Virus record (IMG/VR): IMGVR_UViG_3300034236_000033
Location: 1-25,882 of that record
From: a virus
Strand: one strand, 5' to 3'
Length of the DNA: 25,882 bases
The translations under genes were made by a program, and so were the position numbers. This document shows, in pieces, positions 7,532 to 23,630 of this stretch (position 1 is its first letter; each line of letters opens with the position of its first letter). A model generated the notes under the pieces. That model had not been told where the DNA came from. It made no database searches and was given only the letters and a program-made list of their open reading frames with translations.

Positions 7532-10132
7532 TTAGGAGTCCTTGACGTTGGCACCAAAGTTGATTGGGCATGCTCCAGATGCACAGTCAACGTGTTCCAT
7601 GCCTACTTCTTCTTGAATATCACCAGCTTCTTCGTCTGCTTTGATGGCCGCAACAATGGCTTCAAAGCGAGCTTTGGTTACAGGTTCTTCGGGAAGATAC
7701 TCGTAGGCTGACGTGTCTGACTGTGGCATAACGCTGCAGCAGCGAATGGTCGACTGCCCTTCCATCAAGGTCCGCATGAACTCAGGAAATCCTGTGTCCT
7801 GTGGCTTGTACTTCAGGGTGTAGCTGACCTGGTTGCCGGTGTCGCGTAATGGGGTCACGCCGTCTTCTTCCATACCGACAATCCAATACTTCTCTAACAG
7901 ACGAAGGTACTGGTACTGCTCTTCAGGAGTAGCGTCGCCGGCGAATACCAGCTTGTCACCCATGCCCAGCGTGGAGATCGTTGGAATGGTTGGGAATCCT
8001 ACGATAGTGGTGCCGTTGTACGACTGCAGCTTGCGGATTGGGTAACCCATGGTACGGTAGGTTTCAATCAGCGGATCATCATTGCGGAACTGAACCCAAC
8101 GCAGGTATTCACCCATAGATGGGAGATGCGCACCTTCAGTCAGTCCGAAAAGCTTAGACGTCGTGCCGGCCGGCTTCATAGTCGTATCGGTATGTGGACA
8201 AACCACACCAATCAACTTGGAGTAGAACAGCGCTTCATCTTGCACAGCACGCTTGAAGCGCGACAGCATTTGCCAGAATGGTTGTGAGATTTTTTCATCA
8301 ACCAAATCCTTCCAGCCGAAGCCAAAGCGTGCCCAAGCGTATTCGTGCAAGCCGGTCATGCCGACACCGATACGATTGGTACGTGCTACTTCTTTGCCAT
8401 ACATGCTGTCCATCAGGTTGGTTCTGATGAGAGCACGAGTGGCCACGCGGAATGCATCTTCTGCATCGAAGTCCACGTTGTTCCAGTAGTCGATCCACGC
8501 TTCTTCTGTGGCACCGACAGGTGGTTTGGTGTAAGCCGTACCAGCATGGAATGGCACCACATCAGCGATGACGCAGTACGCACCAAGCAGGTTCAGTACA
8601 ATCTCACCGCATGGATTGGTGATGACTTTGTACTGCATGCGTGACCAGACTTGAGCCAGCACACGACTGAGTTGTTTAGCTTCAGGTGACAGCTTGTACT
8701 TCTTGGATTCAGCGAATTCGCCATCAAGCAGGTTTTCGCTACCTTCACCGTTCCATGTCAGCCGTTCTACAGTGATAAAGCCAGGCTCACCAGTGCCGTC
8801 GTTATAGGATGCCTCACAAGATGCCACAAATACCTTCCAAGCATGAATTTGCGTGTCATTGAAACAGTCCTTTCCAATCAGTTTATGGAAACCACCTTTA
8901 TCAATCAATTCATAGCCATTGACCTTCATCAAGGCAGCTACGTGCTTGACGTTATCCCAGAATTCCATATCGACCATGACCGAGTTGTTACTCGACCAGA
9001 GGAAGCCTCCACGTTTCAGCTCGATAAAGCCGAAAATGGATTTGTCTTTCCAGAATTTGGTAGCCATGCGGGCAGCACGACGTGCACCACCTACCAAGAC
9101 GCATTCTGCTGCGTAGTGATCGGCATACATCGTTGCACGCCATGGTTCCATGCCAGCGTCACGCAAATTAGCGATCTTGTCGATGGCCGTCATGATAGGG
9201 CCAGGCCCAGATGCTGGACGATCTTGCATACCGGCGATTGGTGAATTACGGGGACGTACACCACTGAAGTCCAGGATCAGAACATCGTTGCGGAAGCAGC
9301 CAGCGAAGGTCATGGTTTCGACTTTTTCAAAGCCCTGTGCCCAGCCCTCACGACTGTCCGGAACGATGAATTCGTGGATGGTTTTGTGTGCATACAGGTG
9401 ACGGGCATCACGAGCAGGTATGGCAGTGATTTCACCTGACAGTACATCTTTGTGCATACCGTCGATGACGCACACCACAGTCGGCATGAGACGCCAATCA
9501 ACTTGCATCATGGCGTCATCGTAACAACGACCTACACCTGAACCATTAAGCAAGAGGTAGAACTCCAGGAAGCTCATGGCCGATGTACTGCAGTTGGTGA
9601 ACACTTCCATGTTCCGAGTTGGCTGCGTTGCATCGCCGTGTTGAAGGTGTCGGCCAGACATCAGCAAGGATGCTTGGCGAAGATGGTGGTGCATGCCGTC
9701 GAACTCGATCGCAAATGCAGCCGGCTCGTTTAACCATTGTTCATTGGTTTGGCGACGGTTCCAATTGGTCCGTGGATCCAGCATTGCATTGCCAGTGGCA
9801 ACACGAGTGGATACGTCAGCCCACTTTTCAATCTCGACGTCAGCAATGACATTGAGGGTTATACCAACGACATCTTGGTCACCTTTGTCGACATGGTATC
9901 CATCAGCACCAGGAGTGATCTTCAGGTTGTTGGATTTGCAGTATGCAGCGACTTGATCATCAAGCGAAGTATCATCGTTGCGTGGGATTTCAATGACTTG
10001 GGTACGGGATGCTGGACGATCAATCTTGCGATTGACTGTGCGGTTGGCCACCGCTTCACCCATACCCTTGTCATAAACACGAGCCTGGACACCTACTGGA
10101 CGACGCCAGGTACTTTGACGGGTTGGTAGCAT
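7532..10132 (-). CDS. nrdJ: Adenosylcobalamin-dependent class II ribonucleotide reductase
   Basis: This encodes 866 residues, comparable with monomeric class II enzymes. It reduces ribonucleotides to deoxyribonucleotides using a thiyl radical generated from coenzyme B12. The active site is visible: C181 in TNCSTSA, the radical cysteine C508 and E510 in NPCGEI, and partner C520 in GAYC. The C-terminal redox shuttle pair is C850-x4-C855 (CASGAC), the same spacing as in Lactobacillus leichmannii RNR. GSGVGR, VGGARRAA and MKPAGTTSKL are further conserved segments. No N-terminal ATP-cone is seen. An insert of ~50 residues (~45-95) lies before the finger region. The phage would thus avoid needing an NrdB radical subunit but needs cobalamin from the host. 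A purine-rich GGAAAGAGAAAG leader precedes the ATG; a terminator hairpin lies upstream. Confidence 0.9.
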   Translation of the reverse strand: MLPTRQSTWRRPVGVQARVYDKGMGEAVANRTVNRKIDRPASRTQVIEIPRNDDTSLDDQVAAYCKSNNLKITPGADGYHVDKGDQDVVGITLNVIADVEIEKWADVSTRVATGNAMLDPRTNWNRRQTNEQWLNEPAAFAIEFDGMHHHLRQASLLMSGRHLQHGDATQPTRNMEVFTNCSTSAMSFLEFYLLLNGSGVGRCYDDAMMQVDWRLMPTVVCVIDGMHKDVLSGEITAIPARDARHLYAHKTIHEFIVPDSREGWAQGFEKVETMTFAGCFRNDVLILDFSGVRPRNSPIAGMQDRPASGPGPIMTAIDKIANLRDAGMEPWRATMYADHYAAECVLVGGARRAARMATKFWKDKSIFGFIELKRGGFLWSSNNSVMVDMEFWDNVKHVAALMKVNGYELIDKGGFHKLIGKDCFNDTQIHAWKVFVASCEASYNDGTGEPGFITVERLTWNGEGSENLLDGEFAESKKYKLSPEAKQLSRVLAQVWSRMQYKVITNPCGEIVLNLLGAYCVIADVVPFHAGTAYTKPPVGATEEAWIDYWNNVDFDAEDAFRVATRALIRTNLMDSMYGKEVARTNRIGVGMTGLHEYAWARFGFGWKDLVDEKISQPFWQMLSRFKRAVQDEALFYSKLIGVVCPHTDTTMKPAGTTSKLFGLTEGAHLPSMGEYLRWVQFRNDDPLIETYRTMGYPIRKLQSYNGTTIVGFPTIPTISTLGMGDKLVFAGDATPEEQYQYLRLLEKYWIVGMEEDGVTPLRDTGNQVSYTLKYKPQDTGFPEFMRTLMEGQSTIRCCSVMPQSDTSAYEYLPEEPVTKARFEAIVAAIKADEEAGDIQEEVGMEHVDCASGACPINFGANVKDS

Positions 10133-10160
10133 ATTATTCTTTCTCTTTCCTGCGGTGACG

Positions 10161-10202
10161 AAAAAAGAGCCGACTACCCCAGGAAATGATGGATAGCCGG
10201 CT
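10161..10202 (-). terminator. Rho-independent terminator between thyX and nrdJ
   Basis: On the minus strand AGCCGGCTA and TAGTCGGCT pair over 9 bp with one G-U wobble (arms 10194-10202 and 10168-10176, 17-nt loop), followed by CTTTTTT. It ends ~30 bases before the nrdJ start, so it could also work as an attenuator for nrdJ. Confidence 0.72.
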
Positions 10203-10220
10203 CGAAGGTGCTGCTTGGAG

Positions 10221-10275
10221 AACTGGTATGTTACCTAGTTTACGTAGTTCCACAAGGAAAATAAATTTCTTGTGG
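10221..10275 (-). other. Two stem-loops in the thyX 3' region
   Basis: The first (10250-10275) pairs CCACAAGGAA with TTTCTTGTGG over ten positions including one wobble, with a 6-nt AT loop. The second (10221-10240) pairs AACT-GGTA with TACC-AGTT around a short loop with one bulged base. Together with the terminator at 10161-10202, they fill the 153-bp gap between thyX and nrdJ with RNA structure. Confidence 0.5.
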
Positions 10276-10285
10276 GCTAGTGTTA

Positions 10286-11284
10286 TCAGGCAATTTCTGT
10301 GCTATAGCACTCGCCGGGGATGAGTTTGCGGTACTGGATCCAACCCTGGAAGTTGCCTGACCAAAATTTACAACTGCGATCCATATGCGTGATACCAGGT
10401 TCCCAAGAATCTGTATCACATGGATAATTGATATCTTTGATGTTTTCATCATCAATATCGATGGTATCTGTCTCCTGCATCGGTGTACCTTGATGTTCAA
10501 AGGCTGAAGCGTGTTTACGTTCACTACCAACCAGTTTGTCGTACACTTCTAGGCTCTTAGTCAGGTCGTAGCCTTCATTACGGTAGCTGACCGCCGCTGA
10601 ACGAGCACAAGATACCTTGATGGCGTTATCAACACCAAGAAAACGTTTAGTGTTTTCACCTTCCATGATGCTGTAACGACGGATACCACCTTCACGACTG
10701 ATATCGATGTAAGGCAAGTGCCATTCGCCCGGCTCTAAGCACTCCGGTGTACTTGCATTCTTGGCTTCACGCATGACACGCGCCAGCTCACGAATGGTCG
10801 GGTCTGCAGCATCGTCGTCACGAAGCCAGAAGAAGTTATCCACTTCGGTAGCCGAAAGGACCGTTTTCTGCATTTGCCAGGCTTCAAGCAAGCGGTTGTA
10901 CACTTGCTTGTGGTAACCGGCGTCGCTGAATGCTTTGGCTACACTAATCATCATTTGTCTGGCTTGACGCCATGCACCCGTCTTAGTAACCAGGACATCA
11001 GGTGTCAGCCATACAGGTGCGTCAAAGTCTTCACCTTTATCCTGCATGCCGGCCTGGTTAGCACCAAACCTTACTGGTTCGCCCTGCAATTGCTCCAGCA
11101 TCTTCATGAACGGTACTGCACGGCTGCTGTAGCTGTTGCGAGACAACTGACGATGTGTGTTGAGCTCTGCCAGAATCAACCTGGGGTACTCAATCTCCCA
11201 AGTGATTAGTTCTTTGCCTGTCGCTGTAATGCTGTGGGCCAGTACCGTCGCTTTAATACCATTCTTACCATGAATAGTGATCAT
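10286..11284 (-). CDS. thyX: Flavin-dependent thymidylate synthase
   Basis: This encodes 332 residues from the chosen start. It makes dTMP from dUMP using methylene-tetrahydrofolate and FAD. The ThyX signature RHR-x7-S is present as T43-H44-R45 followed by S53 (THRQLSRNSYSSR), with the first Arg replaced by Thr; this divergent form is familiar from phage ThyX proteins. GGIRRYSIMEGEN and KVSCARSAAVSYRN are later conserved segments, and residues ~255-285 contain the C-terminal HxSxFEHQ-type active-site segment (HASAFEHQGTP). The frame stays open upstream to an ATG at 11374, but that start has no Shine-Dalgarno and would run through the divergent control region. The Met at 11284 has the purine-rich AGAAAGAAAG before it and begins where similarity is expected. 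This is the first gene of the leftward module. Confidence 0.87.
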   Translation of the reverse strand: MITIHGKNGIKATVLAHSITATGKELITWEIEYPRLILAELNTHRQLSRNSYSSRAVPFMKMLEQLQGEPVRFGANQAGMQDKGEDFDAPVWLTPDVLVTKTGAWRQARQMMISVAKAFSDAGYHKQVYNRLLEAWQMQKTVLSATEVDNFFWLRDDDAADPTIRELARVMREAKNASTPECLEPGEWHLPYIDISREGGIRRYSIMEGENTKRFLGVDNAIKVSCARSAAVSYRNEGYDLTKSLEVYDKLVGSERKHASAFEHQGTPMQETDTIDIDDENIKDINYPCDTDSWEPGITHMDRSCKFWSGNFQGWIQYRKLIPGECYSTEIA

Positions 11285-11307
11285 GTCTTTCTTTCTAAGT
11301 GATTGAA

Positions 11308-11320
11308 CAACAAATTGTTG
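11308..11320. promoter_or_regulatory. Palindromic operator-like site between divergent modules
   Basis: CAACAAATTGTTG is a perfect inverted repeat with 6-bp arms around one central base. It sits 24 bases upstream of the thyX start and 69 bases upstream of the rightward tail operon, a natural place for a dimeric repressor or activator. No regulator gene is visible in the window. Confidence 0.35.
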
Positions 11321-11353
11321 CTCTGTTGGTGGGTTTCCTGTAGGGAATGGTGA

Positions 11354-11359
11354 GATAAT
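11354..11359 (+). promoter_or_regulatory. Candidate -10 element of the rightward tail operon
   Basis: GATAAT preceded by TGA resembles an extended -10 element and lies 30 bases before the first tail gene. No good -35 hexamer is found at the usual distance, so it would rely on the extended -10 or on an activator. Confidence 0.35.
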
Positions 11360-11388
11360 GCACGAAATAAACATGCAACGAGGTAACT

Positions 11389-12978
11389 ATGTCTTGTAAT
11401 GATGGCGTTTGCGGTACAGGTGGTTGGGGTGGACCCAAGCCAGGTGACCCAAGCAATAACAGTGTTCTGAGTGCTACACCAGCGTTCGGCGGCATTGATA
11501 TCAACTGGACCTTCCCTACACTGAATCCGTTTGCAGTTGCGCACACACGCATCTACCGCGCTCTCATTGATGATGTGAACGCAGCTTTAGTGATTGTGGA
11601 TCCGGTTGGTGGATCATTCTACTATGACAAAGTAGGGCCAGGAGTGTTGTATTTTTACTGGATTCAATTTGTCTCGATCAACGGCACTCAAGGTGAGTTG
11701 ATCGGTCCTGCATCGTCTACTGCTCGTGCATCGATCGAACAGACGATCACTGATTTGACAGGGCAGATTGATGCCGGCATGTTGGCTCAAGCGTTGAAAA
11801 CTCAGATTGCATTGATCCCCGCTATTGATGCCAAAATCTTGGAGGAAATCACCAATCGCTTGGCAAGCAATGAAGCATTGGGTAATGCAATCGCTCAAGT
11901 ACAGGGTGTAAATGAAGAGACTCGTGCTTTCATTCTGAATGAAATTAGTCAACGACAGACCGCAGATACAGTACTGATCGAGTCGATTAACACCTTATTT
12001 GCACAGGCCGCGGGGAACGCGGCTGCCATCACTGAAGAACAGACTATTCGAGTAACTAAGGATGATGCCTTAGCATCTCGTATTGATACCTTGGCTGCTT
12101 CAGTGAATGGTGATATCACAGCTGCGATCGCTAATGAACAGATAGTAAGGGCCAATGCAGATACAGCCTTGGCCAGTGATATTTCAACGCTGTACACCAA
12201 GGCAGGTAATAACTTGGCGGCGATCCTAACTGAATCCACAGCACGTAGTAATGCGGATAGTGCACTGGCTACTGACATTACAACGTTGTTTACTAAAGCT
12301 GGTGACAATACAGCGGCTATTCAATCTGAAGCTACAGCCAGGGCAAATGCAGTAAGTGCCGAAACCAATGCACGTAATACTCAGTACGCCGCAGTATCTC
12401 CAGCTATTGCTGCTGCGGTACAGACGGAAACTAATGCTCGTGTTTCGGCCGACAATACACTGTCAAATCAGATCACAACAGCTCAGTCGACTTTAAATGG
12501 TCAGATTTCCGCAGTGCAGACAAATCTGCAAACCAATATCGATACAGTGAATGGTAAGGTCACATCTATTGGTGCTCTCTATACTGTCAAGCTCAATGTT
12601 AATGGTTTGATTGGTGGCTTCGGTGCGTACAACGACGGTAATACCGTGCAGATGGGCTTTGATGTTGATTCATTTTGGGTTGGTCGAACAGGTGCCAACA
12701 TGCGTAAGCCGTTCATCATTTCAGGTAGTGAGACCTTCATTGATGAAGCAGTGATCAACAAGCTTACTTTCAGTAAGCTGCGTGCTGATGACGGCTCTTT
12801 GATTGTGGAAAACGGTAAGGTGAAGGCTACCTATATCGAAGCGGTGAACATTACTGCTACGAGTATCAATGTACAAAATAGTGTGGCTGGTGAGGGCTCT
12901 CTTGTCATGGACAACAACTCCTATCGTTGCTATGACGAGAACGGTACATTGCGTGTTCGTCTTGGACGGCTCCAATGA
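11389..12978 (+). CDS. Tail fibre protein with DUF1983 domain (lambda J C-terminal-like)
   Basis: This encodes 529 residues. Residues 1-25 are a Cys/Gly/Pro-rich start. Residues ~25-115 form a fibronectin-III-like beta domain (INWTFP, TRIYRA, YYDKVGPGVLYFYWIQFV). Residues ~182-310 are four tandem ~32-residue Ala-rich repeats of the form 'I..E...R..AD.ALA..I.TL', probably a trimeric coiled coil or stalk. Residues ~397-490 match DUF1983 (YTVKLNVNGLIGGFGAYND, VDSFWVG, FIDEAVINKLTFSKLRADDG), the central fibre domain at the C-terminus of J-type host-specificity proteins. The large N-terminal hub part of J is missing, so this is a separate fibre gene that should attach to a tail-tip protein encoded elsewhere. 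GAGGT lies just before the ATG. It is the first rightward gene, and its stop overlaps the next start. Confidence 0.85.
   Translation: MSCNDGVCGTGGWGGPKPGDPSNNSVLSATPAFGGIDINWTFPTLNPFAVAHTRIYRALIDDVNAALVIVDPVGGSFYYDKVGPGVLYFYWIQFVSINGTQGELIGPASSTARASIEQTITDLTGQIDAGMLAQALKTQIALIPAIDAKILEEITNRLASNEALGNAIAQVQGVNEETRAFILNEISQRQTADTVLIESINTLFAQAAGNAAAITEEQTIRVTKDDALASRIDTLAASVNGDITAAIANEQIVRANADTALASDISTLYTKAGNNLAAILTESTARSNADSALATDITTLFTKAGDNTAAIQSEATARANAVSAETNARNTQYAAVSPAIAAAVQTETNARVSADNTLSNQITTAQSTLNGQISAVQTNLQTNIDTVNGKVTSIGALYTVKLNVNGLIGGFGAYNDGNTVQMGFDVDSFWVGRTGANMRKPFIISGSETFIDEAVINKLTFSKLRADDGSLIVENGKVKATYIEAVNITATSINVQNSVAGEGSLVMDNNSYRCYDENGTLRVRLGRLQ
11932..12318 (+). repeat. Four tandem ~32-residue stalk repeats in the DUF1983 fibre gene
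   Basis: Repeat units begin at 11932, 12028, 12127 and 12223 (residues 182, 214, 247, 279; unit lengths 32, 33, 32, 32), with degenerate copies continuing from 12319. Each starts with Ile-x-x-Glu and contains 'D.AL...I.TL', and most end in an Ala-rich turn. Confidence 0.75.
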
Positions 12979-13296: not shown

Positions 13297-13962
13297 ATGA
13301 CCTTTGGTCTTCGTACATCCAATACCAGTGGATACCCACAGCTCGATGAGAATTTGAGTATCTACTCTCTGCATCAATCAGGGTCATTTGTAACCACTGC
13401 AGGTGGATATGCCCAAGTATCGTTCCCTCAAGTAAATGTTATTCCTCTGGTTTTGGTGAAGTTTGAGAGCACAAATAAGTGGGTGTTAGCACGTATTACC
13501 CGCAGTGGTTTTACTGCACGAGTAGTAGACGGTACCGGGGATAACGGTGTGGTGGGAGTAACTGTTCAATACGCCGTATTTAGTGGTACCGCAGTACTGT
13601 CCAATGAAAAGTATGGACTAAGAATGTACAACTCTGCTGGTGTACTGACGTTCGACTCAGGTCACCCCGCAGTACGCATGTACGCAGCAATCAATACTCA
13701 TCCCTGGCTTACTGGGGGAAGCAGTCGCACTATCTCGTATGGTACGGCCTTAGGTAATCCTTGGTTTCAGTTGCAATCAAAACGACTGGGTATCATCAAT
13801 AATTACGAATACGTTCAAGGCTATCGCCATAACGCCGGCGTCATGCAAACCGCAAGCATCCAGCAGGAACCTGCTGATGAAATCTTGTACGGGATTTCTC
13901 GACCAGGTGGCACATTGCAAATATCTGCTACCTCATGCCTCATCTCTCATGGTGTCTACTAA
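13297..13962 (+). CDS. Two-copy paralogue of the small tail-fibre-associated protein
   Basis: This encodes 221 residues. The protein looks like two fused units: MTFGLRTSNTSGYPQLD at residues 1-17 and YGLRMYNSAGVLTFD at 106-120. Both have the exact GL-x6-G-x4-D spacing of the preceding 106-residue protein. Each unit continues for about 100 residues of predicted beta structure. It lies one base after the upstream stop, with AGGGG as Shine-Dalgarno inside the preceding gene's end. Its stop shares bases with the start of the next gene (TAATG). It is probably a tail-tip or fibre component; the exact role is unknown. Confidence 0.68.
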   Translation: MTFGLRTSNTSGYPQLDENLSIYSLHQSGSFVTTAGGYAQVSFPQVNVIPLVLVKFESTNKWVLARITRSGFTARVVDGTGDNGVVGVTVQYAVFSGTAVLSNEKYGLRMYNSAGVLTFDSGHPAVRMYAAINTHPWLTGGSSRTISYGTALGNPWFQLQSKRLGIINNYEYVQGYRHNAGVMQTASIQQEPADEILYGISRPGGTLQISATSCLISHGVY

Positions 13963-14591
13963 TGAAAAAATATGCCTTTGTGAACCCTGATGGGTCACTT
14001 GCTTACACAGCTTCACCATCAACTGATGATCAGTATGTGATTGGTGGCCTCTACAACGAACTACGCTGTATTGAAGTGCCTTTGCACGTCTCTGAGATGG
14101 ATCTGCTTGTTCGTTACCGTTTTATGAACAACCAATTGGTTGAACTGGCACCAAGACCCTCTGACAGGCATATTTGGTCAGGTAGTGCTTGGGTACCAGA
14201 CTTGATTACAGCAAAGGCCGATCTTGATACACAAATCGAGCGTGAACGGGATAAACGTATCTATTCCCTGATTGCATACGACAACAAGGTCATTGATGCT
14301 GATCCAGTGAGCCAGAAGAACCTGGCCAATAAGATCGCAGAGATGCAAGCCAAGAAAGAACTGAATCTGCCTACATCAGTTGAGATGTTGTTGTGGCGTG
14401 ACGCAGACAACGTTACTCACAGCTGGGAAACAGCGGAAGCTTACCTTGACTGGCTTTACGGCTTTGCCGTAGTACTGTCTGAGCGGGGAACCCAGATCTA
14501 TGCTAGCTCATGGCAGCACAAAGGTAACATTGCAGCGTTGACCACTCTTGAAGCGCTCGAAAACTACAACATAGACAGTTTGTGGCCTTAA
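13962..14591 (+). CDS. DUF4376-like tail protein (possible fibre chaperone or tail component)
   Basis: This encodes 209 residues from the chosen ATG at 13962, which overlaps the previous stop as TAATG; an ATG 27 bases upstream would lie inside the preceding gene without a better ribosome site. Residues 1-90 (KKYAFVNPDGSLAYTA, then LVRYRFMNNQLVELAPRP) resemble the N-terminal beta part of phage tail-fibre assembly proteins. Residues ~92-209 (LDTQIERERDKRIYSLIAYD, LLWRDADN, AYLDWLYGFAVVLSERG) match the helical DUF4376 pattern. Such proteins sit beside adhesin genes and are often assumed to aid fibre folding or attachment. The next gene is a giant tail enzyme, which fits a chaperone or adaptor role, but this is inference. 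Confidence 0.65.
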   Translation: MKKYAFVNPDGSLAYTASPSTDDQYVIGGLYNELRCIEVPLHVSEMDLLVRYRFMNNQLVELAPRPSDRHIWSGSAWVPDLITAKADLDTQIERERDKRIYSLIAYDNKVIDADPVSQKNLANKIAEMQAKKELNLPTSVEMLLWRDADNVTHSWETAEAYLDWLYGFAVVLSERGTQIYASSWQHKGNIAALTTLEALENYNIDSLWP

Positions 14592-14664: not shown

Positions 14665-17600
14665 ATGGTCCAGATCGGTTCAGTATTTACCACCATCACC
14701 TTCAAGAACCCGACCACGGGGGTACTGGTCAATGAACCGGTGACCTTCGGTCAAACGTTCAGTAAAGGGGATTTCCCGGCTACAGGTGCTGGTGTAGAGC
14801 TTCGTGCCCCCAACAATTCAGTGGTTCCTTGCCAAATTGATGTTAAGGCTACCTTTTCAGATGGCTCTGTACGCCATGCTATTTTGTCAGCAATTATCCC
14901 ATCCCTGGCTGCATCAGCTAGTGATGTGTATGGTATTGTCCGCAAGACTGCGGTAGTCACGACCGCGGTGACCCCTTCTGCCTTTCCTGGCTTGAATGCT
15001 ACGGTATTATTGAACGATCATGGCACAGAACTGGCCGGCCCTAATGCTGGTACGGCATACACTGCCGATGCTTCGGTTCAACTTGCTGGTGGTGATTACC
15101 AGACTCATTTGTCAGGCCCGATCTGCAGTGAATGGATCATCCGTGCTCCCTTGAAAACTGCAGGTGGTGTTGAACATCCTGACTTACATGCACGGTTCAG
15201 TATCCGTGCCTATGCTAACCAGTCTCGGGCAAAGATCGATTATGTTATCGAAAATACCTGGGCCAAACGCAAAGCTGTTCCATCAGGTAACAACCCATGG
15301 GAAAATGCAACTCTCAGCCCACGAATCTATGCTGTGAGTTTCAAAGCTGGGGCTACAACAGTGTATGTCCGTAGCCAGGCAGGCTATATCCGTACTCGGC
15401 TGACCAATACGCCAAGTGGCGTCTACGATTCCAACAGCACTGGTTTACCTAATGATGCGACGGTCTACACTGCAACCATCCGTGTGGATGGTGTGGATTA
15501 TCCTATCAACATCACTGGGTCTGCTGCACAGAAGTACCTGGATCTTCGTAACCTGATCAATGCACAATTGAATGGTGCTGCTATCTGCAGCTCAGATGTT
15601 GAAGGTATGAATGGCCTGATCTTTCGCTCAGCGACAACAGGCCCAACTTCATTAGTTACGATCACTTACGGTACTTTGTTTCCTGCTCTGGGCCATGCCC
15701 AGCTCGTGGGTACTACCCAATACTATCCATATCGACCTATTCAGGGTGATGAGGTGCTTCATCATGCGTATGCACGCTGGAAGAAAACCTTTTGGTGGGG
15801 TGCTGAAACAAAAGTTCACGTAGCGCATAACAAGAGCTACCTGACGGCTACACGCTCAGTGCCAAATTATCCTTCGGATATCAGTGGCTCCAACACACAG
15901 ATTGCCACCAATCTTGTAACTCTCAAAGCCAATGAAGACATTGGCCAGAATGGTCTCACTAAAGCATTGATGAGTGATGTGGGTTACGCACCGGGTATTG
16001 GTGTGCTCCCTGAGTGGACTGCCATGTACCTGATCAATCAGGATGTGGATGCCAAGTACACGATGCTGAAGCAAGCAGATCTGCAAGGTTCCTGGTCTAT
16101 TCATGCCCGTGATTACACGACAGACAGACCAATCAACTTTGTTGATTATCCTTACGCTACGCTTGTAGGTCAGATAACGGATAGCTACAACTCTGCTACT
16201 GGTTTGTATGAGAAGCTCCCGGCCGTCTCGATCCCAACCTGCATCCCTAATAATCGGAATGTGGCAGACACTTCGCACCATCCTTGTTTCTGCTTTGTTC
16301 CTTACATGGTGACGGGCGACCATTATTATCTGGAAGGTTTGCTGTTCTATAGTCGTTTCGTAGGTTTGAATTCGCTATCCCATCTGAACTATCGTGATGG
16401 GCGTAAATGCCTTTGGAAAGGGGATCAACCCCGTGGTCAAGCATGGTCATTGCGTACCATGGTTCATGCTGCGTACATCACTCCGGATGATCACCCACTG
16501 AAATCGGACATCCTCTACAGTCTGGAACAAAATCGTCTTTGGTACGCGACAAATTATTTGGATCCTGCTGGTCAGTACTTTAACCAGTTGGGATTCATTT
16601 ATCATGGTTATGGTTTGGCATACTCCACCAGTGGTGGTGCTAGTACCGGTGCTGCACCGTGGATGAATCACTTCATCACTTCAGCAGCCGGTCGTGCAGT
16701 TGAATTGGGTTTCACTGAATTCCTGCCATTGCTCAACTTCGTATCTAAATGCGTTGTTGGCTTGATGACTTCTGGCTCTGATTATTGCTGGCAGGTGGCC
16801 TCTTGGTACTCGCTTCGTCTTAAAGCCAGTGCCTCCAGTAGTGTGTTGTACACGACCTACAAGGAAGTCTACGACAACACCATGCCAGCAGGCATTCTGG
16901 CCCAAGAATGCGGTACTGCTGGTATGACCGCAGCCATCGGTACTGCACAGGGTTACACCATTCCATTGAACTCTATGGCTGGTTACCCTGCAACCATTGC
17001 TGGCTATCCTGCTGTAATCCAAGCAGCCTTGGCTTACTGTGTCACGTTCGGTACGCCTAATGCGGATAACGGTTGGTTGATCTTTGATAACCGCGCAGCT
17101 AAGCCCGATTACAACCTGGGTCCACAGTTTGGCATTGTTCCTCGTGTCAATGAAGTGGCAGCCATCACGTATTCACCTCCTGATGTTTACGCGGTGACTA
17201 CAGGTCTACCAATCTATGGTGGCAAAGCCAAACCAGTGACCAGTAACGGTGCATTTGATAAAGTCGACGTTGCACTGGAAAGTACGGATGGTCTTCCAGG
17301 CAACACCAGTACTAAGATCCTGATTTTCAGTCTTCATGGTAGCTCAGGGCAGAACATCACGAATGGTCGTCAGTATGACGCGACTGTCAGTGGCCCAATG
17401 GCCTATGACATCCATAATGTATTCCGCTTTAGCACAGTGCTAAGCACAGTAGCTGGCTGTTATCTGCTGCGTCCTGTTGATTGGTATGGTAGTAACGCCA
17501 ATGGTACTCGCAAGGAAAGTATGTGGCTTGGCTTTAAAAATATGCCAACCGGTGACGTAGCTCTGATTACCGAACGCCGTCTTGACGCATTGGTTCAATG

Positions 17601-18348
17601 GGCTGAAATCAATCTTCAGTATGTTGCGAAGAAAACCGTTCTTACTGGTGGTTCGATGGGCGGTTGGGGTACCTTGACCTTCGGTGTGAGCCGTCGAAAC
17701 AAGTTCGCTGCACTCTATCCGGATCGTCCGCGGTGGAAATACTCAGCTGCGTTGAACAACGTTGCTGTAGCAAACTACAATGGTGCTTTAGAAAATGCCC
17801 CAGTAGCTACACCATTGAACCTGGTTGCAGCTGATGGTGGTGGATCCTACATCACCAAGCTGGATATCATTGCCTATGTATCCAACACAGCAAACAAGAT
17901 TCCTTGGATTGGCTGGTGTGTTGGTAGAAACGATGGTTTTACCAATTTCTCTGATCATGTGGCAGCAGTTGCAGCCATGCGAACAGCAAAGCGTGGCTTT
18001 GCGTTTGCTTGGAATGATGGCAACCATACTGTGGGCTCGATCCAGGCTCAAATCGTCAATAGCTACCCATGGGGTACATTTGAAATCGGTAAAGGGTATC
18101 CACTCTTTACCCAGCATTCTGGTGACCAGGATCCAGCAGTTGACCTGGTTGGTGGTATTAATCTTGGTCTGTCATTCCGTAATGTTGTCGAAACTGCGAG
18201 TGGCTGGAGCTGCGAGGTTACAAGTATCGCCGGTGCTCGTACTGTAAAAGTCGAGCCAATCAGCGATGTGTTTATAACGACCGTGGCAGCTAAACTTATC
18301 ACAATCCCAGCAGCTAACACCTGGGTTCCAGTATCCTTCACCGCATAA
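14665..18348 (+). CDS. Giant tail depolymerase: lyase-like region fused to a serine esterase-like domain
   Basis: This encodes 1227 residues. Residues ~1-220 (EPVTFGQTFSKGDFP, then FSDGSVRHAIL) look like the RIFT-barrel start of PcRGLX/YetA-type exo-rhamnogalacturonan lyase relatives. Residues ~370-405 (FWWGAETKVHVAHNKSYL) and ~510-780, with aromatic- and His-rich helices (DTSHHPCFCFVPYM, GQAWSLRTMVHAAYITPDDH), suggest an (alpha/alpha) toroid glycan-binding or lyase domain. Residues ~840-1160 form an alpha/beta hydrolase: nucleophile S997 in LTGGSMGGWG, an acid candidate at D1090 (VGRNDG), and H1121 in NDGNHT. This resembles polysaccharide or PHB-type esterases. A beta-rich C-terminus of ~65 residues follows. 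AAGGG precedes the ATG. The enzyme probably cleaves and deacylates host surface polysaccharide. The esterase is well supported; the lyase is a fold-level guess. Confidence 0.72.
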   Translation: MVQIGSVFTTITFKNPTTGVLVNEPVTFGQTFSKGDFPATGAGVELRAPNNSVVPCQIDVKATFSDGSVRHAILSAIIPSLAASASDVYGIVRKTAVVTTAVTPSAFPGLNATVLLNDHGTELAGPNAGTAYTADASVQLAGGDYQTHLSGPICSEWIIRAPLKTAGGVEHPDLHARFSIRAYANQSRAKIDYVIENTWAKRKAVPSGNNPWENATLSPRIYAVSFKAGATTVYVRSQAGYIRTRLTNTPSGVYDSNSTGLPNDATVYTATIRVDGVDYPINITGSAAQKYLDLRNLINAQLNGAAICSSDVEGMNGLIFRSATTGPTSLVTITYGTLFPALGHAQLVGTTQYYPYRPIQGDEVLHHAYARWKKTFWWGAETKVHVAHNKSYLTATRSVPNYPSDISGSNTQIATNLVTLKANEDIGQNGLTKALMSDVGYAPGIGVLPEWTAMYLINQDVDAKYTMLKQADLQGSWSIHARDYTTDRPINFVDYPYATLVGQITDSYNSATGLYEKLPAVSIPTCIPNNRNVADTSHHPCFCFVPYMVTGDHYYLEGLLFYSRFVGLNSLSHLNYRDGRKCLWKGDQPRGQAWSLRTMVHAAYITPDDHPLKSDILYSLEQNRLWYATNYLDPAGQYFNQLGFIYHGYGLAYSTSGGASTGAAPWMNHFITSAAGRAVELGFTEFLPLLNFVSKCVVGLMTSGSDYCWQVASWYSLRLKASASSSVLYTTYKEVYDNTMPAGILAQECGTAGMTAAIGTAQGYTIPLNSMAGYPATIAGYPAVIQAALAYCVTFGTPNADNGWLIFDNRAAKPDYNLGPQFGIVPRVNEVAAITYSPPDVYAVTTGLPIYGGKAKPVTSNGAFDKVDVALESTDGLPGNTSTKILIFSLHGSSGQNITNGRQYDATVSGPMAYDIHNVFRFSTVLSTVAGCYLLRPVDWYGSNANGTRKESMWLGFKNMPTGDVALITERRLDALVQWAEINLQYVAKKTVLTGGSMGGWGTLTFGVSRRNKFAALYPDRPRWKYSAALNNVAVANYNGALENAPVATPLNLVAADGGGSYITKLDIIAYVSNTANKIPWIGWCVGRNDGFTNFSDHVAAVAAMRTAKRGFAFAWNDGNHTVGSIQAQIVNSYPWGTFEIGKGYPLFTQHSGDQDPAVDLVGGINLGLSFRNVVETASGWSCEVTSIAGARTVKVEPISDVFITTVAAKLITIPAANTWVPVSFTA

Positions 18349-18357
18349 AGGCACGTA

Positions 18358-20808
18358 ATGGCAACTATTATTGAAAAAACAATCGGCACCGGTGGTGATT
18401 ACGCGTCTATCCCACTTTGGTGGGCGTCAACTCCGGCTGACTTTACAACTGCAGATCAGATTCATCGTGGACTGTTACTGAATCAAGAATTCGTTAACAC
18501 CACCACTATTGCCTTGTCAGGTAAAACTTGTGACGCCACACGGTATGCAGAATTGACTGCAGCTCCTGGCGCATCGTTTATTGATAATGCTACGCAGATG
18601 GGTAGGTACGATGCAACTAAAGGTGCAGCACTGAAATGCACTGCTTCGACAAGTTCGATCCTTAGTGTGTCGGTTAAATATATGCGGATTAATCGCTTAC
18701 AGTTTAGCAACACATCAACTGGATCAACTGCAGCTTGCTGCCTGTATGAATCAGGTGCTGCCTCGATCGTCGGTTACACCGATATCGATCAATGCATCAT
18801 GGAATCCAGCAGCGAAAACAGCTCGCTCAAGGGTACTTTGCGAATTAGTAATACTGGCAGTAAAGTACGCAATTCGATCATCATCAACAAATCAGCTTTG
18901 GCGACTACTATCATTGCTGCCCTGGTTGGTGGTGCTAGTGCCTACAACTGTACATTCGTGAACATCAGTGGGACTCCATATAACTATGGCATCTCCACAC
19001 AATACATCACGGGTGTAATGAAAAACTGCTATGTCGGTGGCGTGATTACACCAGAAGATGGCACAATTGCTCTTACGAAGACCACATGCTTCAGTAATGC
19101 TGCTGCAACTGGTTACAGCACTGCACCATTATCGACTGCGACGTTTGCTAACGTTACTGCCGGTACTCATGATTTGCGCACGGTACTTGGCTCAGCACTG
19201 CTTGATGTTGGTACCACTGAGTCAACTTATGCTGCTTATGGTATTTATGGTAACGCTCGTCCTCAAGGCGCAGCGTATGACGTCGGTGCATATGAGTTGG
19301 TAACTGACTTCACTGCACCAACGCTGACTTCACCTACCGGCACTGCAACTGGTCCTACGACTGCAACTGGTACTGTTTCAACGAATGAAAGTAACGGTAC
19401 GCTGTTCTATCTAGTTAATACCAGTCCTACGGCAACGGTTGCTGCAGTCAAAGCCGGTTCATCTAAAGCTGTAACGGCAGCTGGTACGCAGAACGTTTCT
19501 ATTGTGGGCCTCACGGCTAGCACTGTTTATTATCTGCACTATGTGCATGTTGATTCGGCCAATAACACCTCAACGGTTTATGACTCGGCCGCATTTACTA
19601 CTAGCCCACCACCTGATGTGACGGCACCAGTACTCACGTCACCAACGGCTACGGTTACTGGCAGCTCGACTGCTACAGGTTCTGTAACCAGCGATGAAGG
19701 TGCAGGTACTCTGTTCTACCTGGTCGATGCAAGTGCCTCATCTACTGTGGCTGCGGTCAAAGCCGGCTTGTCGAAAGTGGTCACTGCTACCGGTGCTCAG
19801 TCTGTAAGTCTTACAGGCTTAACCCAGAACACGACTTACTACCTGCACTATGTTCAAACCGATGCTTCGGGTAATGATTCGTTGGTGTCGAATACTGCCA
19901 GCTTTACGACCCAGATTTCGGCTGACGTTACTCCGCCTACGTTGACTACGCCTAGTGGGACGCCAACAAGTGCCTTTACGGCTACTGGTGCTGTAACGAC
20001 TAATGAGAACACAGGTAGCCTGTATTACCTGGCTAATACTAGTGCCACTGCAACGGTTGCTGCTGTTAAAGCTGCTCTATCCAAACCAGTAACAGCCACC
20101 GGTGCTCAGTCTGTTTCATTGACTGGTTTGAGCGGAGCAACTACGTATTACCTCCACTTTGTTCATACCGATGTGGCAGGTAACGATTCGATCGTGTCTA
20201 ATACGACGAGCTTCATCACGCCTGTGGCACCGGACACTACTGCACCAGTCCTGGAAGTTCCTACAGCCACAGCCACTGGCAGCACAACTGCTGTGGGTAG
20301 TGTGGGTACCAATGAAGCAGGGGGTACGCTGTACCGCTTCCTGAGCTCCAATCCTACGGCCACTGCAACTGAAGTAAAGGCAGCCAATCAAACCACCGCA
20401 GTAGGCGCTACTGGTAACCAAGATGTTAGCTTCACTGGTTTGAGCCCGAGCACAACCTACTATGCTCACTATCTTCAACGTGATGCGGCCGGTAATGATT
20501 CCCTGGTAGTAAACAGTGCATCGTTCTCGACCAATGCAGCAGGTACTACAGGCACATTTAAGACTCGTCAGTTTGCCAACAACACTTCTACGGGATGGTT
20601 GTCAGGTACTACTGTGTACTGGTCCTGGCATCAGAATGGTCGTATCGGTCAATCTTCTACTAGTGTTACGTTTGGTGTAGGTACCTTGGCTTCTGATGGT
20701 ACTTTGACTATTACTGCCCCAATTGGGGCTGGGTACTTGATGGCTGCTGTTCGAGGAACAGACTACACACTTGATCAACCTTACCACCAGCCAGGAACGG
20801 TGACCTAA
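18358..20808 (+). CDS. Beta-helix tail adhesin with four tandem FnIII/Ig-like repeats
   Basis: This encodes 816 residues. Residues 1-~315 (opening IIEKTIGTGGDYASIPLWW) show the regular short-strand, Ser/Thr/Asn-rich pattern of a right-handed parallel beta-helix, common in phage tailspikes and pectate-lyase-like enzymes; a catalytic site cannot be picked out. Residues 319-~730 are four tandem repeats of exactly 103 residues beginning TAPTL, TAPVL, TPPTL and TAPVL, each ending 'YYLHYVQTD.SGNDS.V.NTASFTT'-like, an Ig/FnIII type fold. Residues ~735-816 form a separate beta-rich cap. The start follows AAAGG and lies ten bases after the previous stop. Likely role: receptor-binding fibre or depolymerase, with the repeats as a spacer arm. 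Confidence 0.72.
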   Translation: MATIIEKTIGTGGDYASIPLWWASTPADFTTADQIHRGLLLNQEFVNTTTIALSGKTCDATRYAELTAAPGASFIDNATQMGRYDATKGAALKCTASTSSILSVSVKYMRINRLQFSNTSTGSTAACCLYESGAASIVGYTDIDQCIMESSSENSSLKGTLRISNTGSKVRNSIIINKSALATTIIAALVGGASAYNCTFVNISGTPYNYGISTQYITGVMKNCYVGGVITPEDGTIALTKTTCFSNAAATGYSTAPLSTATFANVTAGTHDLRTVLGSALLDVGTTESTYAAYGIYGNARPQGAAYDVGAYELVTDFTAPTLTSPTGTATGPTTATGTVSTNESNGTLFYLVNTSPTATVAAVKAGSSKAVTAAGTQNVSIVGLTASTVYYLHYVHVDSANNTSTVYDSAAFTTSPPPDVTAPVLTSPTATVTGSSTATGSVTSDEGAGTLFYLVDASASSTVAAVKAGLSKVVTATGAQSVSLTGLTQNTTYYLHYVQTDASGNDSLVSNTASFTTQISADVTPPTLTTPSGTPTSAFTATGAVTTNENTGSLYYLANTSATATVAAVKAALSKPVTATGAQSVSLTGLSGATTYYLHFVHTDVAGNDSIVSNTTSFITPVAPDTTAPVLEVPTATATGSTTAVGSVGTNEAGGTLYRFLSSNPTATATEVKAANQTTAVGATGNQDVSFTGLSPSTTYYAHYLQRDAAGNDSLVVNSASFSTNAAGTTGTFKTRQFANNTSTGWLSGTTVYWSWHQNGRIGQSSTSVTFGVGTLASDGTLTITAPIGAGYLMAAVRGTDYTLDQPYHQPGTVT
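19312..20547 (+). repeat. Four tandem 309-bp repeats (103 residues each)
   Basis: Units start at codons 319, 422, 525 and 628, an exact 309-bp period. Conserved positions include the TAPxLxxPT opening, AT(A/G)xVxTNExxGTLFYL, and the YYLHYV...GNDS close. Copies have diverged at third positions, so duplication is old or recombination is limited. Confidence 0.85.
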
Positions 20809-20809
20809 T

Positions 20810-22630
20810 ATGCTGCGCGATCTCAGTGTCCTAACTGGTGGTAAAGGGATCTGCGGCACCCACTTAGTGGGTGTCCCAGCCTCGGCAATTCCGGTGGGGT
20901 TTCCCCTTTCGGGATTGCTTAACAATGACATCTCTTCGTCTGACCCAGTAGGATGTCTGTATCGTGTGGAGGTCTTAGAACGACCTGCATCCGGTAATCT
21001 TTTTATTGATGAGAATGGTGCATTCAGTCTGACTGGTGCGCCAGATGGCACCTACACAGGTAATCTCATCAACTACAAGAACAATGTATCGGAACAGGGT
21101 AGTTACAGCATGACCATCGGTGCAGCTGCCGCAACCGTAACTGGTGTGGTTGTGAGTCCAGCTACGCCTACGGTACCTGGTACTGGCACCCAGCAATTTA
21201 CTGCTGTGGTCAACGGTACTAACAACCCATCTCAGTCCGTAACTTGGACCAAATCGGGTGCTGGTACCTTGTCGTCGACTGGTTTGTACACTGCACCATC
21301 TGCCATCTCTACTGTGCAGACAGTGACGATTACGGCCACCAGTAGCCTTGATAACACGAAGGTTGGATTTACCACGCTGTCTATTCCTGCTTTGGTGGTG
21401 AGCACAGTCACGGGAGTGACAGTCACCCCAACTACTGCTACGGTTCCTGGTTTGGGTACTCAGCAATTTACCGCGGTAGTTGCTGGTACCAATGGCCCAT
21501 CACAAGCAGTAGTATGGAGCAACACAGGCACGGGAACTATTTCTTCTTCTGGCTTGTACACTGCGCCTGCAAGCACCAACGTCGAACAAACAGTGACAGT
21601 TACTGCTACCAGTGTAGCCAACGGCACTAAATTTGCTGTGGCTATTCTGTCGATCCCAGCAATCGTACCTGTTGTCGTCACTAGCGTGGATATTTCACCA
21701 TTGATGCCAGCCATACAGGGGCTGGGTACGCAGCAATTTACTGCGACTGTGAATGGTACCAATTCACCTTCGCAAAGCGTTGTGTGGTCTCTGGTGGGTC
21801 CAGGTTCACTGTCTACATCTGGTTTGTACACGGCTCCTGTAGGAACCTTGTCGCTACAAACCGCATCTGTAACGGCAACCAGTGTGTTGAACAACACAAA
21901 GTTGGCCACCACAGTTGTCAGTGTGTTGCCATTGATTACCGTGACTGGTGTAACAATTACGCCTGCTGTGTCTCAAACATTGTCCGGTAAAACTAGGCAG
22001 CTGACTGCAGTGGTTGAAGGTGAAAATAACCCACCACAGACCGTTACTTGGGCTATTTCCACTACTGGTGAATACGCTGACGGTGAAGTAATCACTAATG
22101 CGAGTATCAGTTCTACTGGTTTGTTCACTGCACCAGAACATACTGATGAAGAGCTCATCTATTATGTGTTTGCTGTTAGTACGGTAGATGCAACGCCGTC
22201 TAAACGTGGCCAAGGAACAATTATTGTCCCAAAGTCGGCCAATATTGTAGTAGCTCCAAGTCGTATTCTTCGTACAGTGGCAGGCAATTTGCTGCAACGT
22301 GATCCTTCTTTGCTGACTAAAGATGCATTTTATCTTCGTGGCCGTAAGTGGATGATCAACAAAGACCCAGATGATGTGCTTCACTACGCTATTGACATGC
22401 AGTTGGATATGCAAGCCGCGTCAACAACTATCAAGAATGTGGAAGCAATTCCTGTGGGTGTTACTGTGGGTGATAACAACTATGTACGCATCCAAGGTTC
22501 TCTTTTGATCATCAAAGTTCTTGGTGGTGTGTATAGTGATGAAGTGTACAACTCAGTTACTTTGAGAATCACATGCAGTAATAATGAAGTTCTTGACCGA
22601 ACTATTTATTTCGTACTGAAAGAGTCCTAA
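20810..22630 (+). CDS. Tail adhesin with four Ig-like (BIG2-type) repeats
   Basis: This encodes 606 residues. Residues 1-~105 hold a beta domain with NLFIDENGAFSLTGAPDG, a segment common near the ends of phage tail-fibre proteins. Residues 111-~474 are four Ig-like repeats (starts at 111, 201, 291, 379), each with 'TGV.V.P...TVPG.GTQQFTA.V.GTN.PSQ.V.W' followed by 'STGLYTAP'. These resemble bacterial Ig-like group 2 domains of surface adhesins. Residues ~500-606 (HYAIDMQLDMQAASTTIKN, then SVTLRITCSNNE) resemble a C-terminal domain seen in phage fibre-tail adaptor proteins. No signal peptide or transmembrane segment is seen, as expected for a virion protein. It starts one base after the upstream stop with GGTGA as ribosome site and is followed by a terminator-like hairpin, ending the first tail block. 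Confidence 0.75.
   Translation: MLRDLSVLTGGKGICGTHLVGVPASAIPVGFPLSGLLNNDISSSDPVGCLYRVEVLERPASGNLFIDENGAFSLTGAPDGTYTGNLINYKNNVSEQGSYSMTIGAAAATVTGVVVSPATPTVPGTGTQQFTAVVNGTNNPSQSVTWTKSGAGTLSSTGLYTAPSAISTVQTVTITATSSLDNTKVGFTTLSIPALVVSTVTGVTVTPTTATVPGLGTQQFTAVVAGTNGPSQAVVWSNTGTGTISSSGLYTAPASTNVEQTVTVTATSVANGTKFAVAILSIPAIVPVVVTSVDISPLMPAIQGLGTQQFTATVNGTNSPSQSVVWSLVGPGSLSTSGLYTAPVGTLSLQTASVTATSVLNNTKLATTVVSVLPLITVTGVTITPAVSQTLSGKTRQLTAVVEGENNPPQTVTWAISTTGEYADGEVITNASISSTGLFTAPEHTDEELIYYVFAVSTVDATPSKRGQGTIIVPKSANIVVAPSRILRTVAGNLLQRDPSLLTKDAFYLRGRKWMINKDPDDVLHYAIDMQLDMQAASTTIKNVEAIPVGVTVGDNNYVRIQGSLLIIKVLGGVYSDEVYNSVTLRITCSNNEVLDRTIYFVLKES
21140..22228 (+). repeat. Four tandem ~270-bp Ig-like repeats
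   Basis: Units begin at 21140, 21410, 21680 and 21944. The first two periods are exactly 270 bp, the third 264 bp, and the last unit is the most diverged with a longer loop. The stretch encoding GTQQFTA is nearly the same in the first three units at DNA level. Confidence 0.8.
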
Positions 22631-22803: not shown

Positions 22804-23112
22804 ATGAACAGGTTAAAATACGAACACACAACAATCAACGATAAAGTGAAACCCATGGGCCAAGAATTCAACGAAACGACAGTCAACGTGGTAGCTAGTC
22901 AAGGGGCCAAGATTGGCTTTGTTTGGGCAGCTATCGGTATCAGCTCCTGGACCGATGCTGCTGCTTTCCTGGCTTTTGTGCTTTCATTCCTGGCACTGAG
23001 CGAGTATCTGTGGAAGAAGATCCTTCGACCGATGCTGGCCAACCTTGGTGTCTGCAAACCAGCCCGCAAGCGAGTCAAGATGGTCGCTGTTGAAGAAGAG
23101 GAAGAATCTTAA
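22804..23112 (+). CDS. Holin (two predicted transmembrane segments)
   Basis: This encodes 102 residues. Hydrophobic segments lie at ~35-48 (AKIGFVWAAIGISSW) and ~51-68 (DAAAFLAFVLSFLALSEY), followed by a basic stretch (KKILRP, KPARKRVK) and an acidic end (EEEEES). Size, charge pattern and the endolysin gene directly downstream support a holin that permeabilises or depolarises the inner membrane at the end of infection. AGAGGAA lies about 11 bases before the first ATG. A second in-frame ATG at codon 18 has AAAGTGA upstream, so a shorter product without the basic N-terminus is possible. The stop overlaps the endolysin start as TAATG. Confidence 0.78.
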   Translation: MNRLKYEHTTINDKVKPMGQEFNETTVNVVASQGAKIGFVWAAIGISSWTDAAAFLAFVLSFLALSEYLWKKILRPMLANLGVCKPARKRVKMVAVEEEEES

Positions 23113-23630
23113 TGAGCAAACCACGCATGGCAGTCGCCGGCTTGATGCTTAGTGCCATGGCCTTCATTGGCCTGGTAGCAAGCGAAGGCTTTGAGGAGAC
23201 TGCCAGTATCCCTACCAAAAATGATCGTCCTACGGTGGGTTTTGGCTCTACCTACTGGGAAGATGGTTCTGCAGTGAAGAATGGCCAGAAGGTCACTCCA
23301 GTGCGTGCACTGCGGGTGGCTCAAGCTCATATCACCAAGGAAGAAATTATCTTCCGTAACTCAATGCCTGGTGTGCAGCTCAGCCAGGTCGAATACGACA
23401 TCTACATGGACTGGGTGTACCAGTACGGTACTGGTGCATGGTCAGGTTCCTCCATGCGTTCTAAGCTCATGAAGACTGACTATGCAGGTGCTTGTGGGGC
23501 ACTGTTGGGATATAAGTTCTCTGGTGGCTACGATTGCAGCACGCTGATCAATGGGAAACCTAATCAGCGTTGCTGGGGTGTCTGGACCCGTCAGAAAGAA
23601 CGCTACGCTACCTGTATGGGGGCGCAATGA
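23112..23630 (+). CDS. GH24-type endolysin with N-terminal signal-arrest-release-like segment
   Basis: This encodes 172 residues. After a short basic start, residues 6-24 (MAVAGLMLSAMAFIGLVAS) are a weakly hydrophobic Ala/Gly-rich segment, as in signal-anchor-release endolysins that are exported by Sec and freed when the membrane is depolarised. E25 in SEGFEETA is the likely catalytic acid. The following IPTKNDRPTVGFGST segment holds D38 and T41/T47, the lysozyme-like continuation. QVEYDIYMDWVYQYG and RCWGVWTRQKER are further conserved blocks of this muramidase family. Four cysteines in the C-terminal third could form disulfides in the periplasm. The enzyme would cleave the glycan strands of peptidoglycan. 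The start overlaps the holin stop (TAATG) and the stop overlaps the Rz start (ATGA). Confidence 0.85.
   Translation: MSKPRMAVAGLMLSAMAFIGLVASEGFEETASIPTKNDRPTVGFGSTYWEDGSAVKNGQKVTPVRALRVAQAHITKEEIIFRNSMPGVQLSQVEYDIYMDWVYQYGTGAWSGSSMRSKLMKTDYAGACGALLGYKFSGGYDCSTLINGKPNQRCWGVWTRQKERYATCMGAQ

Follow-up and report, generated by a model that had tools for sequence, protein, structure and literature searches.

A phage gene in a tail and lysis block joining a PL26-like module to a predicted alpha/beta-hydrolase module

Known phage proteins comparable to the one described here include tail-associated esterases that act, or are expected to act, on surface polysaccharides; tail fibre gp63.1 of the E. 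coli phage G7C, for instance, reportedly deacetylates polysaccharide and is of the SGNH type. On the bacterial side, the exosortase-A (PEP-CTERM) polysaccharides bind the flocs and biofilms of many Burkholderiales together. Other tail esterases are the SGNH tail-fibre deacetylase gp66 of the Pectobacterium phage Possum (PMC9569702) and the SGNH fibres of Klebsiella prophages (PMC13123978). Here we analysed a viral DNA of 25,882 nucleotides (IMG/VR record IMGVR_UViG_3300034236_000033, positions 1 to 25,882, hereafter the window), in which the gene at 14665-18348 encodes a protein of 1227 residues made of two separately inherited modules, an N-module (residues 1-831) and a C-module (residues 840-1227). 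We hold it probable that this protein is a two-part enzyme of the receptor layer, in which a depolymerase of extracellular polysaccharide (EPS) resembling polysaccharide lyase family 26 (PL26), probably itself a lyase, is joined to a Ser-Asp-His esterase that probably de-O-acylates the same polymer.

Two separately inherited modules in one reading frame

14665..18348, + strand: 1227-residue fusion protein; reading frame intact and also present in L001
14665..17157, + strand: N-module (residues 1-831), beta N-terminal half and alpha/alpha toroid, PL26-like architecture from the AF2 model and PL26 structure matches
17182..18345, + strand: C-module (residues 840-1227), predicted alpha/beta-hydrolase of esterase type with a short beta tail; stand-alone homologues in L004, L012, L096, L097 and L166
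17182..17223, + strand: internal peptide DVYAVTTGLPIYGG at the fusion joint (residues 840-853), equivalent to the N-terminal peptide of stand-alone esterases

The open reading frame (ORF) starts with an ATG preceded at 8-12 nt by AAGGG and runs through 1227 codons with no internal stop. Its two parts exist separately in other genomes: the proteins of L002 (856 residues) and L003 (929 residues) align solely to residues 1 to ~855 of the window protein, and that of L004 (396 residues) solely to residues 840-1225. The initial annotation had described a single fused protein with exactly these ORF coordinates and a division at ~835/840, and both descriptions held. Two further loci carry the modules as separate genes side by side. 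In L012 an N-module gene (7911-10340) is followed by a gene for 130 residues, by a C-module gene (from an ATG at ~10754 to 11929) and then by a homologue of the 816-residue protein encoded next in the window. In L166 the gene of a 1083-residue N-module protein overlaps by 4 nt that of a 404-residue C-module protein; this region appears prophage-like by inspection (tape-measure-like, capsid-like and head-tail-like genes), and its genome is one of those taken from the family that has Massilia agrisoli as centre genome, Oxalobacteraceae according to the record of the latter. Among the sequences searched, only the virus of the window has both modules in one polypeptide.

That two real genes were merged by an error of assembly or sequencing is extremely improbable. 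The fusion is indeed known from one virus only and the relatives keep the genes apart, but two contigs concur on it: L001, a 77.7-kb contig of nearly the same virus, overlaps the window over 14,414 bp with 1 mismatch and has the identical ORF, so the junction is not the error of a single assembly. L001 is no independent lineage. Across the joint, coding is uninterrupted, with neither a frameshift nor a nearby Met, and the G+C content at third codon positions (GC3) is similar on both sides. Moreover, the protein of L002 terminates in DVYAVASGMPIYGGRAA followed by a stop (L002:10520-10571), which matches the first residues of the esterase, as expected of a once-fused gene. The artefact was accordingly rejected on the agreement with L001 and the continuity of coding at the joint.

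The phylogenetic tree places L002 as the sister of the window (SH-aLRT 91), inside a clade of four phages (the window, L002, L003 and L099) with a support of 100. The orphan peptide of L002 may be either the remnant of a fused ancestor that was truncated afterwards or a linker used a second time. In other phages, tail enzymes of both kinds begin with a similar peptide, namely the esterases of L004 and L096 and the lyase-like proteins of L006, L122 and L155; the pattern shared at the N-termini of these different tail enzymes is Y-x(n)-G-x2-[LIM]Y[GA]G. This short peptide may serve as a docking tag and mark the point of recombination between cassettes.

The N-module and its cellular relatives

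14734..14877, + strand: RIFT-barrel segment (residues 24-71) resembling PcRGLX_1st; PF19501 E 0.0015, under cut-off
15373..15750, + strand: inserted domain (residues 237-362) resembling D2-D3 of the flagellar cap protein FliD; VIA-align to 5xlk, Z 9.4, 110 residues, root-mean-square deviation 2.9
15868..17157, + strand: alpha/alpha toroid (residues 402-831), presumed catalytic domain, from the AF2 model and VIA-align
16108..16110, + strand: R482, invariant in the alignment of 73 relatives
16276..16278, + strand: H538, invariant in the 73 relatives, candidate catalytic residue
16432..16455, + strand: R590, W594 and R597, each invariant in the 73 relatives

The AF2 model of residues 1-840, built on an alignment of 73 relatives, has a pLDDT of 92.1 and a pTM of 0.93. 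A Foldseek search with it returned PL26 exo-rhamnogalacturonan lyase at the top (13 chains, E 1e-8 to 2e-6), and with VIA-align the best full-length match in the PDB was again PL26 (5xqj, 5xqg and 5xqo; Z 12.6-12.8 over 509-518 residues, spanning 3-829). As modelled, the N-module has the architecture of PL26, namely a RIFT barrel, a beta domain and an alpha/alpha toroid, but its sequence gives no support for placing it in that family. The fold search had been set beforehand as a check of the proposal, made in the initial annotation, that this region is glycan-active, and a glycan-active fold was what it returned. The first-domain profile of PL26, PF19501 (PcRGLX_1st), scored 18.8 bits on the window against a cut-off of 22.1, and 24.2 bits, above it, on the bacterial relative L015. 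Sequence searches of the PDB gave no match with the 73-row N-module profile and only noise with the single sequence of the whole protein, and the link to PL26 therefore consists of the fold and a weak barrel profile. The family was matched neither by an NCBIfam model nor by a Pfam model of a catalytic domain. The domain calls that were weak from sequence alone became convincing for both modules once relatives were added and, for the N-module, with the structure model as well.

Among the 73 members the FliD-like insertion occurs only in the clade of the window, L002, L003 and L099. Another viral ORF, of 1546 residues (L105:425-5065, + strand), contains the N-module in duplicate, as two complete copies in tandem (835 and 743 bits), and would thus encode a double lyase-like protein.

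Bacterial relatives were sought in 84,980 genomes, which yielded 338 candidate stretches, 261 of them encoding a relative of the N-module, and the best 80 of these 261 were kept. They belong mostly to Massilia, Noviherbaspirillum, Undibacterium and other Oxalobacteraceae, with Polyangium and others besides, and several have lipoprotein-like N-termini. Within ~7 kb, 16 of these best 80 loci have a gene of the exosortase-A system; counted by type, TIGR03097 was found in 10, TIGR03101 in 5, TIGR03100 in 4 and the TIGR03098 type in 4. A flippase accompanies 13 of the same 80 and an MBOAT or OafA-type acyltransferase 9. By a simple estimate, made without a formal test, a single-copy gene has a chance of ~0.3% of falling in a given 16-kb stretch of a 5-Mb genome, and the 10 of 80 seen for the roughly single-copy TIGR03097 is thus far above chance. 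The genome of L166 carries, in addition to its prophage-like copy, a chromosomal N-module (L167) adjacent to genes for an MBOAT acyltransferase, a protein like AlgJ/X and a protein like nucleotide-sugar dehydrogenases. The best explanation of these data is that the N-module represents an uncharacterised family kept by bacteria, mainly Oxalobacteraceae, inside EPS clusters of exosortase-A type. Rhamnogalacturonan was dropped as the default substrate, the cellular kin occupying EPS loci and not pectin loci.

Some of the bacterial proteins have a more complex composition. On a plasmid of Skermanella rosea (L014:5845-8451) a relative annotated only as a calcium-binding protein is fused to RTX calcium-binding repeats, and in L053, L069, L070 and L076 the N-module relatives lie within much longer proteins, that of L069 carrying Laminin_G_3, CHB_HEX_C_1 and a Por secretion tail.

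The C-module and how the two modules may act together

17335..17340, + strand: H891-G892, candidate oxyanion-hole HG motif; invariant in six relatives, low-scoring alignment with the HG of LC-Est1C
17653..17655, + strand: S997, nucleophile candidate (GGSMGG); aligned to the Ser of GHSMGG (6vh9) and GLSMGG (4rgy)
17932..17934, + strand: D1090, candidate acid of the triad; aligned to the D of GKQDF (6vh9) and GTEDF (4rgy)
18025..18027, + strand: H1121, candidate base of the triad; aligned to the H of GDHDY (6vh9) and GEHEW (4rgy)

From its sequence, the C-module is predicted to be an esterase of the alpha/beta-hydrolase type with a Ser-Asp-His triad. The three candidate residues do not vary among the six relatives, whose identity goes down to 45%, and the residues of 6vh9 and 4rgy to which they align are presumably the catalytic triad of those enzymes, as is established for the esterase D family. 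The triad and its numbering, with S997 in GGSMGG, D1090 in GRNDG and H1121 in DGNH, are those that the initial annotation had put forward for an alpha/beta hydrolase, and comparison with the relatives supports them. When the profile of the C-module was compared with the PDB, 30 of 31 weak matches (E<=1, best 2e-4) were esterases, cutinases and related hydrolases. The Pfam family PF00756 matched the window at 13.3 bits and the C-module of the window at 15.0 bits, both under its cut-off of 22 bits, and matched 3 of 5 C-module members below the cut-off (best E 4.8e-4). In the collections searched, the C-module is known only from viral contigs and one probable prophage: a search for further relatives gave one among the 145 genomes of one family (that of the Massilia agrisoli centre, Oxalobacteraceae) and none among 398 genomes of that family's phylum, a weak negative with <=4 candidates per genome scored.

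The linkage between the two modules was observed in three arrangements: fused in the window, neighbouring in L012 and overlapping by 4 nt in L166. In L002 and L003 a SASA carbohydrate esterase gene (above the Pfam cut-off) stands directly downstream of the N-module gene. More generally, the downstream neighbours of viral N-modules (n=48) comprise 5 SASA proteins, at least 1 GDSL protein and 1 C-module protein, and the upstream neighbours (n=47) have no match to an esterase family, which gives a Fisher p of ~0.007 when seven downstream esterases are counted (plausible range 6-8, the scan not naming the matching members). This enrichment is suggestive of a joint role. A virion enzyme that both deacylates and cleaves a glycan had been called unusual at the outset; the form in one polypeptide is unusual, but both activities would occur elsewhere as two genes, in L012, in L166 and, with SASA proteins, in L002 and L003.

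In the mechanism that we propose, the esterase module would first strip off the acyl groups that shield the polymer, leaving the chain to be cut by the PL26-like module; a single tail-associated protein carrying both steps would let the phage cut through an acylated matrix. The fusion would fix the ratio and the proximity of the two activities, for which two gene products would suffice in other phages. We infer the beta-elimination chemistry, the O-acyl specificity, the EPS substrate and the order of action. Concerning the chemistry, the presence of Arg and His without an invariant acid would suit beta-elimination on a uronate polymer. It is also possible, though short of probable, that phages took up the PL26-like family of EPS clusters as a depolymerase and that the fused O-acyl esterase unmasks the acylated polymer, which the same protein then cuts, mirroring the acyltransferase-plus-lyase pair of the host.

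Several results weigh against this proposal. For the N-module, the profile of the PL26 catalytic domain, PcRGLX_3rd (PF21346), matched neither the window (E<=1) nor 8 relatives (E<=0.1), and hhalign of the N-module profile with genuine PL26 proteins retrieved via PF21346 aligned 45 barrel columns only. With the toroid alone, VIA-align also matched a polysaccharide lyase, GH88, UGL, GH105, GH76 and epimerases at Z 8-10. Moreover, the window departs from the family consensus at 6 of 50 conserved polar positions (W148H, D669H, R700L etc.). For the C-module, the AF2 model from 5 sequences failed (pLDDT 38.8), and no N-module was found near it in the stretch read of L004, L096 and L097, where it does not depend on a lyase. 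Finally, the sample of neighbouring genes is small, and SGNH and SASA proteins are common in phage tails, as tail esterases are in phages at large (PMC13123978).

Since PcRGLX_3rd is unmatched and the profiles align in the barrel only, the catalytic residues of PL26 are not transferable, and the N-module might be a glycoside hydrolase with a mechanism like that of GH88, GH105 or GH76 on its toroid, the rest of the proposal being kept. This alternative, in favour of which also count the toroid matches and the residues D460, D535 and D608 (conserved in 92-97% of the relatives) that could act as acids, seems somewhat unlikely: the whole module of beta half and toroid is matched by PL26 only (Z 12.8, ~510 residues), and the invariant polar residues R482, H538, R590 and R597 would fit uronate binding and beta-elimination better than an acid pair would. 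The initial description of the region as rhamnogalacturonan-lyase-like was right for the modelled fold but is not to be taken as naming the substrate, given the silent PcRGLX_3rd profile, the alignment confined to the barrel and the bacterial kin, which suggest exosortase-A polysaccharides instead.

The departures from consensus, together with the structural FliD-like domain inserted in the N-module, could also mean that the protein is mainly a binder or adhesin, in which one or both modules keep their fold for receptor recognition with little activity, as in receptor-binding proteins of weak catalytic activity. We regard this as quite improbable, the five strictly invariant residues of the N-module and the full candidate triad of the esterase being retained. 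Catalytic degeneration of the window copy was likewise not favoured: its closest phage relatives depart from the consensus equally often, at 5-7 of the 50 positions.

A further alternative is that the modules hit different targets, the N-module the matrix EPS and the C-module the esters of O-antigen, lipid or protein, the fusion being a packaging convenience of cassette recombination. The C-modules that stand without a nearby lyase-like gene would agree with it, as would module borders falling at a reused short peptide motif, which indicates cassette shuffling. It is nonetheless unlikely, given that the linkage was seen three times in differing arrangements and that unrelated SASA esterases take the place next to the N-module in L002 and L003, a pattern that speaks for one common substrate. 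Our preferred reading remains that of a depolymerase and an esterase probably acting on the same polymer.

Gene context and comparison with known systems

11389..12978, + strand: tail fibre / central fibre J-like protein; PHROG 496 E 1e-87, phrog_31 E 7.5e-19
13935..14591, + strand: DUF4376 tail-fibre protein; PF14301 E 1.7e-10, phrog_1807 E 9e-18
18358..20808, + strand: 816-residue protein; partner gene adjoining or near the C-module in all C-module loci examined
20810..22630, + strand: Ig-domain protein with a Gp77 fibre-tail adaptor domain; PF23148 E 1.2e-6, PF02368 E 1.7e-11
22804..23630, + strand: holin and lysozyme-type endolysin genes; phrog_21780, phrog_7, PF00959

The gene of the fusion protein belongs to a block of tail and lysis genes, and this position is what suggests a virion location for its product. 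Replication genes fill the left half of the window as a block directed leftward, with primase, exonuclease, ssDNA-binding protein, Sak4-like annealase, ribonucleotide reductase and thymidylate synthase. The phage probably infects Burkholderiales. The N-terminal part of the 816-residue partner is similar in L004, L012, L096, L097 and L166, as read by eye and not scored by a program; the protein shows fn3-like repeats and matches no Pfam family above cut-off.

If the N-modules of phages and hosts depolymerise the exosortase-A polymer, they would provide a tool for dissolving it and a handle on the receptors of the phages. The fusion also makes it testable whether phages must de-acylate the polymer before cutting it and whether the tethering of both activities speeds infection.

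Compared with the described systems, the N-module shares with the PL26 enzyme PcRGLX (5xq3, 5xqg, 5xqj, 5xqo) the order of domains and the fold, a RIFT-barrel and beta half followed by a toroid, with a weak PcRGLX_1st signal. It differs from PcRGLX by an identity of only ~10%, by the lack of a match to PcRGLX_3rd in the members scanned, by its FliD-like insertion and by its context, phages and EPS loci instead of the fungal pectin degradation of PcRGLX. It also differs from the classical beta-helix tailspikes, its presumed catalytic domain being, in the model, an alpha/alpha toroid and not a trimer of right-handed parallel beta-helices. The C-module has in common with the alpha/beta-hydrolases of the esterase D / FphF type (PF00756; FphF 6vh9, 4rgy, 8z91) the GxSMGG elbow and a Ser-Asp-His triad whose order and spacing can be aligned with those in 6vh9 and 4rgy, but it remains under the PF00756 cut-off and has conserved extras, a DRPRW motif and a C-terminal beta tail. 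Like the deacetylating tail fibres, it would be a tail-associated esterase acting on surface polysaccharide; those fibres are SGNH hydrolases, whereas here an alpha/beta-hydrolase is joined to a depolymerase-like module.

A known phage counterpart of the N-module is gp39 of EBPR siphovirus 1 (JF412302), a relative at 26% identity whose N-terminus bears the short YGG motif also seen in the esterases; it lacks the esterase module, and the next gene is annotated as a glycosyl hydrolase. The exosortase-A (XrtA/PEP-CTERM) EPS loci of Massilia, Noviherbaspirillum and their relatives hold homologues at 36-42% identity, adjoining TIGR03097, TIGR03100, TIGR03101, flippase, glycosyltransferase and some acyltransferase genes; unlike the window protein, these cellular versions are mostly single-module, without the esterase module and without the FliD-like insertion. 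In the open-access literature searched, whose coverage was partial, no case of a lyase domain and an esterase domain combined in one phage protein was found. Depolymerases and polysaccharide esterases are each already known from phages; the fusion of a module of modelled PL26 architecture, from a family of exosortase-A EPS clusters, to a predicted alpha/beta-hydrolase is a combination that this virus alone displays among the collections and papers searched.

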